This document shows positions 5,785-6,964 of a stretch of 6,964 nucleotides of DNA, in pieces. The notes under the pieces were generated by a model. That model was not told the DNA's origin. It worked only from the letters and a program-made list of their open reading frames with translations, and ran no database searches. A program made the position numbers and the translations under genes. Source of the stretch: a bacterium (lineage in GTDB: Bacteria; UBA9089; CG2-30-40-21; SBAY01); assembly GCA_040757115.1 (NCBI GenBank), contig JBFLYA010000195.1, forward strand, positions 1 to 6,964, in the 5' to 3' direction. The first letter of the stretch is position 1. Each line of letters begins with the position of its first letter.

Positions 5785-6263
5785 TTATTCCCTAATCTTA
5801 TACAAATAACAAACTCCATTGGTATATAAAAGATTAAAATACTTATTCAATATTTCCTCATTCCAGAGAATAGTAGGATATCTATGCAGAGTAAAGTACT
5901 CATTCCTATTGATAAATATATAATGGATGTTATTCCTTTTTAGACTATTCAATATTTCATCTATATCTGATGAGGTATGGATAATTGTTCCTTCTACACT
6001 TACAGAGGAGTGGACAAATTGGACTTTAAAATAATAGCTTCTGGTTTCATTGATCGAAAGCATCTTATCTGAAATAGAGAGATGGGTATTGATATAATCA
6101 GCCATACTATAGAAATCTAAGTTTTTCCTCAGATAAGCATCCTGTGATTCAAGACCAAAGATAACAGGCAAAGCACGATGTGCCAATCCTTTAGTAATTA
6201 AAAAGGCATTGGCATAAGCCCACCATCCACAAATTAATCCTATCAAAATAATAACGCATATTT
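5785..6263 (-). pseudogene. C-terminal remnant of a large membrane glycosyltransferase
   Basis: The frame is open from TAA at 5785-5787 up to a stop inside a repeat at 6277-6279, but has no ATG or ribosome binding site at its beginning. A TTG at 6244-6246 lies inside a membrane helix and is an unlikely start. The sequence opens with a hydrophobic helix (VIILIGLICGWWAYANAFLI). It continues FGLESQDAYLRKNLDFYSMADYIN, split by recognisable features: a conserved ESxDxYL box, a YIN box, then a soluble tail with INETRSYYF, HYIFINRNEY and a closing YLYKIRE. This is the pattern of the last helix and extracytoplasmic tail of GT39/RgtABCD-like proteins of about 500-700 residues, so most of the gene is missing. 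The break coincides with the GTAACCGTTCAGGT end of repeat copy A. It overlaps the ribosome binding site of the radical SAM gene, so it was the preceding gene of that operon. Confidence 0.65.
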
Positions 6264-6330
6264 GTAACCGTTCAGGTTATACATTAGAAGTGTAAGAAGG
6301 GAGATAACGGGATCGGGGAGAGGTGGAGAT
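6264..6330 (+). repeat. GGAGAT dispersed repeat, copy A
   Basis: Outer end GTAACCGTTCAGGT at 6264-6277, a 12-base insertion relative to the other copies, GTGTAAGA at 6290-6297, then GGAGAT-like units AGGGAGAT, AACGGGAT, CGGGGAGAG and GTGGAGAT. It is the most diverged copy. It abuts the broken glycosyltransferase gene. Confidence 0.75.
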
Positions 6331-6444
6331 TATAAATTTCCTGGATAATTGGGCAAAATGGTTATGCAAAAAGACTAACTTTCATAACCCCTAAACCAAA
6401 CCAGTCTCCTAACTCTAATCCTTTCACCAAAAACTCCTAAATAT

Positions 6445-6501
6445 ATCCCCTTCTCTCCTTTATCTCCATATCTCCTTTTCTTACACTACCTGAACGCTTA
6501 C
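6445..6501 (-). repeat. GGAGAT dispersed repeat, copy B
   Basis: On the minus strand it reads GTAAGCGTTCAGGT (6488-6501), GTGTAAGA, then AAAGGAGAT, ATGGAGAT, AAAGGAGAG and AAGGGGAT, with 9-8-9-8 spacing. It is inverted relative to copies A and C, so A and B bound a segment of about 238 bp with inverted ends. Confidence 0.85.
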
Positions 6502-6510
6502 GAAAATACA

Positions 6511-6564
6511 TTCGTAATTCGTTTATTTCTGCTTCCTGACGAACTACTAATTACGAATTACGAA
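6511..6564. repeat. 12-bp perfect inverted repeat with tandem TTACGAA units
   Basis: TTCGTAATTCGT (6511-6522) is complementary to ACGAATTACGAA (6553-6564) over a 30-base loop. Related units ATTACGA and AACTACGA repeat near the second arm. It could fold as a stem in RNA or a cruciform in DNA. The function is unknown. Confidence 0.7.
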
Positions 6565-6600
6565 CTACGATTTCCCCCTGAAAATAGATGTAAGAATAGA

Positions 6601-6723
6601 ACACGGATAACACGGATTTAACAGATTTTCGGTGATTTTTCTCTTTCATTTTTCTGTCTTCTGTCCTCTGCCTTCTATCTTCTGACCTCTGTATTTATCC
6701 GTGCTAATCCGTGTTAATCAGTG
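6601..6723. repeat. CACGGAT inverted arms enclosing a 7-base TCTGTCT array
   Basis: The left arm has ACACGGATA and ACACGGATT (6601-6618). The right arm has ATCCGTG twice (6697-6703, 6707-6713), the reverse orientation of the same motif. Between them, 6653-6694 is six units in 7-base register: TCTGTCT, TCTGTCC, TCTGCCT, TCTATCT, TCTGACC and TCTGTAT. It is not coding. Confidence 0.8.
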
Positions 6724-6760
6724 GCTGAATAGTTACCTACCTTGAAGAAATCATATCTTT

Positions 6761-6842
6761 TCATTGTTTCCCTTTGATATACTTTTCATACCATAACTCA
6801 AACACCAAGAGAGTCCAGAGTAATTTTCGGTTATCTTTTTTA
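6761..6842 (-). pseudogene. asnB: C-terminal fragment of asparagine synthetase (glutamine-hydrolysing)
   Basis: On the minus strand the frame reads KKDNRKLLWTLLVFELWYEK, then YIKGKQ and TGA at 6761-6763. The segment DNRKLLWTLLVFELWYEKY is the characteristic last helix of AsnB-type enzymes, which amidate aspartate using glutamine and ATP and often appear in capsule and O-antigen loci. Only about 26 of an expected 550-650 residues remain. Reading upstream, the frame reaches a stop at 6851-6853 inside repeat copy C; the coding match ends at the GTAAGCGTTCAGGT boundary. There is no start, so it cannot make an enzyme. It is collinear with the sugar genes and was probably part of the same locus. 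The identification rests on a short segment. Confidence 0.7.
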
Positions 6843-6899
6843 GTAAGCGTTCAGGTGGTGTAACAAAAGGAGATGTGGAGATTAAGGAGATAGGGAGAT
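6843..6899 (+). repeat. GGAGAT dispersed repeat, copy C
   Basis: GTAAGCGTTCAGGT at 6843-6856, GTGTAACA, then AAAGGAGAT, GTGGAGAT, TAAGGAGAT and AGGGAGAT (9-8-9-8). It has the same orientation as copy A and abuts the asparagine synthetase fragment. Confidence 0.85.
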
Positions 6900-6914
6900 A
6901 TTATTAAAAAAATT

Positions 6915-6954
6915 GAAATTAATAGAAACTAATAGAAATTTATGGAAATTTGTT
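6915..6954. repeat. Four 10-base tandem units (GAAATTAATA type)
   Basis: GAAATTAATA, GAAACTAATA, GAAATTTATG and GAAATTTGTT follow in exact 10-base register directly after repeat copy C. The unit length equals about one helical turn, so the A/T tracts are phased and may bend the DNA. No coding is seen to the window end. Confidence 0.75.
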
Positions 6955-6964
6955 GTTTTCCACA

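Follow-up and report, generated by a model that had tools for sequence, protein, structure and literature searches.

The window, that is, the whole stretch of DNA that was analysed, is the entire contig C195 (6964 bp). The contig ends 122 bp inside a short repeated element, designated copy B, and the 5′ part of the adjoining asparagine synthetase gene asnB is therefore not visible in the window. A related element, copy A, lies beside the remnant of a glycosyltransferase (GT) gene. The features of this region are as follows.

5785 to 6263, minus strand: 3′ remnant (about 158 codons) of the gene for a 627-aa membrane glycosyltransferase; the N-terminal part, about 465 residues, is missing.
6264 to 6501, plus strand: MITE copy A, complete, 238 bp, with terminal inverted repeats (TIRs) at 6264–6277 and 6488–6501.
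6577 to 6662, no strand assigned: fragment of a dispersed repeat, about 89% identical to a copy on contig C12 (L149).
6653 to 6736, minus strand: 84-bp end of a second MITE type, with the TIR variant GTAACTATTCAGCC at 6736–6723; the other end is missing.
6737 to 6764, minus strand: start (9 codons) of an MNT-type nucleotidyltransferase gene, which overlaps the asnB stop and is cut by a TIR.
6761 to 6842, minus strand: 3′ end of asnB; the remainder lies at C348:1221–3052.
6835 to 6842, plus strand: 8-bp target site duplication (TSD) of copy B, CTTTTTTA; the second copy is on contig C348, and the intact gene of G001 has a single one.
6843 to 6964, minus strand: MITE copy B, first 122 bp of a 237-bp type (GTAAGCG end), cut by the contig end.

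Two further mobile features are found towards the start of the contig. An ISKra4-family transposase element occupies 318–1983, with inverted ends at 318–341 and 1960–1983. Its transposase gene is probably frameshifted, as it is split into two overlapping frames (438–1328 and 1309–1974). At 2–235, the end of a GxxExxY gene (TIGR04256, PD-(D/E)XK) abuts a MITE-like tail (190–233) that has no TIR. On contig C7 (L035:14892–15402), a 511-bp element bounded by the TIRs of the MITEs described here and flanked by a perfect 8-bp TSD contains a GxxExxY ORF, which shows that this gene can ride as a passenger of such TIR elements.

A sequence-only reading of this DNA had noted two genes cut at the same end of one repeat. 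The repeat, GTAA(C/G)CGTTCAGGT, indeed adjoins both the GT remnant at 6263/6264 and the asnB fragment at 6842/6843; GTAACCGTTCAGGT begins at 6264 and GTAAGCGTTCAGGT at 6843, and in each case the immediate neighbour is the remnant of a minus-strand gene that lacks its 5′ part. However, the genes meet opposite ends of two related copies: copy A faces the GT gene with its GTAACCG/TATACAT end, and copy B faces asnB with the opposite GTAAGCG/GGTGTAAC end. The shared orientation relative to the genes, which had also been pointed out, is uninformative, because the TIR reads inward from both ends and every flank shows it. That reading did not include a third place where a TIR cuts off a gene, at 6736/6737.

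An inverted copy of the 14-mer TIR at 6488–6501 closes the copy at 6264 into the 238-bp element. The 14-mer, of which about 1e-4 copies would be expected by chance in 6964 bases, has 298 exact copies (145 + 153) in the 4.3-Mb genome; the reversed pattern, used as a control, gave 1 + 0 exact matches genome-wide. The comparison of copies took in 1.4 Mb of the 4.3 Mb. In this sample the TIRs pair in inverted orientation (127 pairs), most commonly at a spacing of 230–259 bp, and 45 of the 127 pairs are flanked by perfect 8-bp TSDs, as against 0.43 expected from shuffled flanks. The duplication is constant in length, and clean empty sites are present in G001, a genome of the same genus, for the insertions at asnB and at C16:397. 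The elements in the window are short (237–238 bp, well within the limit of about 600 bp for a MITE), lack a transposase and occur in many copies, and many of their 122-bp stretches are 100% identical between copies. One and the same TIR precedes several unrelated element bodies. Searches against Rfam and for tRNAs gave no matches. GTAA(C/G)CGTTCAGGT is thus the terminal inverted repeat of a high-copy non-autonomous MITE family. The family is new, and the kind of element is well known. In two genomes of the same phylum, G008 and G013, the 13-bp TIR occurs in 104 and 57 copies, respectively, with no match to an IS66 transposase in either; the mover is absent from these assemblies or unrecognised.

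The ends of the elements point to the IS66 family. An element on contig C277 between GTAACCGTTCAGG ends encodes DUF6444 and DDE_Tnp_IS66 (PF03050) in a frame with 2 in-frame stops. In G005, a genome of the same order, a single-ORF IS66 element has an open frame and GTAACTACTCAGG ends. In both elements DDE_Tnp_IS66 is the sole ORF between such ends. An intact transposase gene with exactly GTAASCGTTCAGG ends was found neither in the source genome nor in the other genomes searched. IS66 elements generally have GTAAGCG ends and 8-bp duplications (PMC11946415), and ISDge4 of the ISBst12 group has the GTAA-type ends GTGACTACTCAGCA / GTAACTGCTCAGCA, 8-bp direct repeats and a single ORF (PMC12898284). 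The window elements likewise start with GTAA and are flanked by 8-bp duplications. On the inverted pairing, the 8-bp TSDs, the ends shared with transposase-bearing elements in the source genome (decayed) and in a relative (open), and the published ends, we regard them as MITEs of the IS66-family, ISBst12-group (single-ORF) type, with such a transposase as the presumed mover. They share with ISDge4 the GTAAC-type ends, the 8-bp direct repeats and the single transposase ORF of their presumed partners. They differ from it in that they carry no transposase, and in that the presumed C277 partner, which has the same ends, has in-frame stops. Like MITEAba12 of Acinetobacter (PMC6382973) and the Coxiella MITEs (PMC5896051), they are short, non-coding, TIR-bounded and of high copy number with many identical copies. 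The window MITEs appear to differ from those elements in their IS66-type ends, in the several unrelated bodies per TIR and in a much higher copy number, with about 500 13-mer TIRs per genome.

The suggestion that the repeat inserts into genes is borne out at asnB. The MITE end together with CTTTTTTA is present at three exact places in the genome, one of which is on C348. There the opposite MITE end and the same 8 bp lead directly into the remainder of the asparagine synthetase gene, as identified by Pfam. G001 has an intact asnB with the empty site. In the alignment with G001, C348 matches up to the insertion point and the window fragment matches from there on; TAAAAAAG occurs once in G001 and on both sides of the MITE in the source genome. 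Copy B lies about 24 codons before the asnB stop, and the interrupted frame now stops about 10 codons into the MITE. The asnB case is a simple MITE insertion, a clean transposition that duplicated 8 bp of target. No deletion took place there, since the gene continues on C348 and G001 shows the empty site. Copy B is 100% identical to many other copies, and asnB is split over two contigs because the assembly broke in this identical repeat.

For each of the 45 clean insertions, the two flanks were joined to model the empty site. Of these modelled sites, 40% are crossed by an open frame of at least 120 codons, compared with 83% of random genomic positions, and nearly all of the frame-crossing insertions are close to a frame end. 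Most of the clean insertions in the sample are thus intergenic or sit no more than a few codons from the end of a gene. The MITE accordingly has no preference for cutting genes; its distribution is the one that selection would leave, and asnB is among the more damaging of the clean insertions seen. Copies without a TSD were also considered as genome-wide rearrangement junctions. Most of the approximately 7 that have both flanks placed in G001 are collinear there, a small sample; a TIR edge without a TSD is usually no sign of a large rearrangement.

The situation at the GT gene is different from that at asnB. The orthologues in G002 and G003, which lie beside truA in both genomes, are full length (627 aa). 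The remnant gave nothing in Pfam and no convincing match in NCBIfam. DNA identity to the orthologues is about 81–83% up to the MITE and at background level beyond it. The homology reaches the repeat border within about 1 bp, in agreement with the earlier placement of the breakpoint at the repeat end. An apparent match extending into the MITE as far as 6345 proved spurious, the DNA identity there being background. The two flanks of copy A, GCATATTT on one side and GAAAATAC on the other, match at 4 of their 8 positions and form no TSD. The partner junction predicted by a simple insertion into the GT gene, TTACGCATATTT, is absent from the genome; inexact matches to it are too many to interpret. 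Continuation of the gene across the repeat, which would have spoken against the sequence-only reading, was observed for asnB. For the GT gene, the missing 5′ portion (three quarters of its length, about 465 N-terminal residues) was not found in the assembly, which is rated 99.87% complete. The bin may lack the contig that carries this portion. G001 yielded no GT orthologue.

On its far side, copy A is followed by unrelated sequence, the dispersed repeat and then the second MITE type with its end GTAACTATTCAGCC. The start of the MNT gene overlaps the asnB stop, and the gene is cut after 9 codons at 6736/6737 by the third TIR. The MNT remnant is 94% identical to contig C264 of G001, and this identity ends exactly at the TIR at 6737. 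The intact MNT gene of G001 matches Pfam Polbeta/NTP_transf_2 and is paired with a HepT-like gene. The nest of elements measures 473 bp, and each of its outer edges thus cuts a different gene, the arrangement that a deletion joining mobile elements would leave. The missing duplication, the missing 5′ part, the far-side TIR and the MNT remnant support the proposal that the repeat marks a recombination or deletion junction, here for the GT gene.

We propose that the elements are IS66-type MITEs, that copy B is a simple insertion in asnB and that copy A stands at the edge of a deletion beside the GT gene, a reading that we consider highly probable. An IS66-family transposase of the ISBst12 group would move the MITEs, duplicating 8 bp of target at each insertion. 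Copy B jumped into asnB near its stop, and the gene continues across it on C348. Copy A (95.4% identical to its nearest sampled copy) is an older, diverged MITE. The deletion would have taken away three quarters of the GT gene from its 5′ side, the remainder of the MNT gene, which lies downstream of asnB, and everything in between, leaving the GT 3′ remnant, the nest of truncated elements and the 9-codon MNT remnant. The junctions are seen directly at the GT and MNT edges of the nest. The deletion itself would most likely have come about by recombination between like-oriented elements or TIRs, or by a transposase-adjacent deletion.

Tentatively, the short shared TIR itself may be the recombination point, by deletion between like-oriented TIRs of nested elements. 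Nested insertions would bring such TIRs close together, and a deletion between them would swap the body and keep the insertion edge; the products would be copies without a TSD and gene remnants that end precisely at a TIR. In the comparison of G000 with G001, two or three sites, a small sample, have a common insertion edge and a different TIR-bounded body: C10:15028, C6:10747 and C88:9162 (L146:15028, L142:10747 and L159:9162 versus L218, L232 and L244). They fit recombination at the TIR, since a deletion of this kind would explain the shared edge and the different body.

It is also possible, though rather unlikely, that copy A is merely a simple insertion in the GT gene whose 5′ part and TSD were lost or mutated by unrelated events, with the MITE uninvolved in the deletion. 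In favour of this view, the divergence of copy A indicates age, a TSD is absent from many copies, and most such sites with both flanks placed are collinear in G001. However, the GT edge falls exactly at one TIR, and on the other side of the nest the MNT gene is cut exactly at another; unrelated deletions would not favour both edges falling there. An assembly misjoin at copy A in this repeat-rich metagenome bin, whose contigs commonly end in these repeats as the window does, is improbable: copy A is about 5% off its nearest sampled copy, which is enough for it to be placed by reads, the contig contains the flanks on both sides, and the search for the GT 5′ part elsewhere found nothing. That the repeat is a site-specific recombination or REP-like site that breaks genes, and no transposon end, might be read from the several unrelated bodies behind one short sequence and from the sites with a common edge and a different body, but is very improbable given the inverted pairing, the 8-bp TSDs far above chance and the true empty sites, all of them marks of transposition, and the IS66 transposase gene bounded by the same ends.

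Insertion of copy B in asnB together with a deletion at copy A is therefore retained as the explanation of the locus, and the whole picture is one of ordinary transposon damage in an uncultured bacterium. The MITEs explain the break points of contig C195, and they show that the asnB fragment belongs to a single gene which a MITE has divided between two contigs. In bins of this kind, annotation will yield false gene fragments wherever a contig breaks off at one of these MITEs. With its very high copy number in an uncultured lineage and several bodies per TIR, the family is a usable natural system in which to study gene erosion by small transposons.
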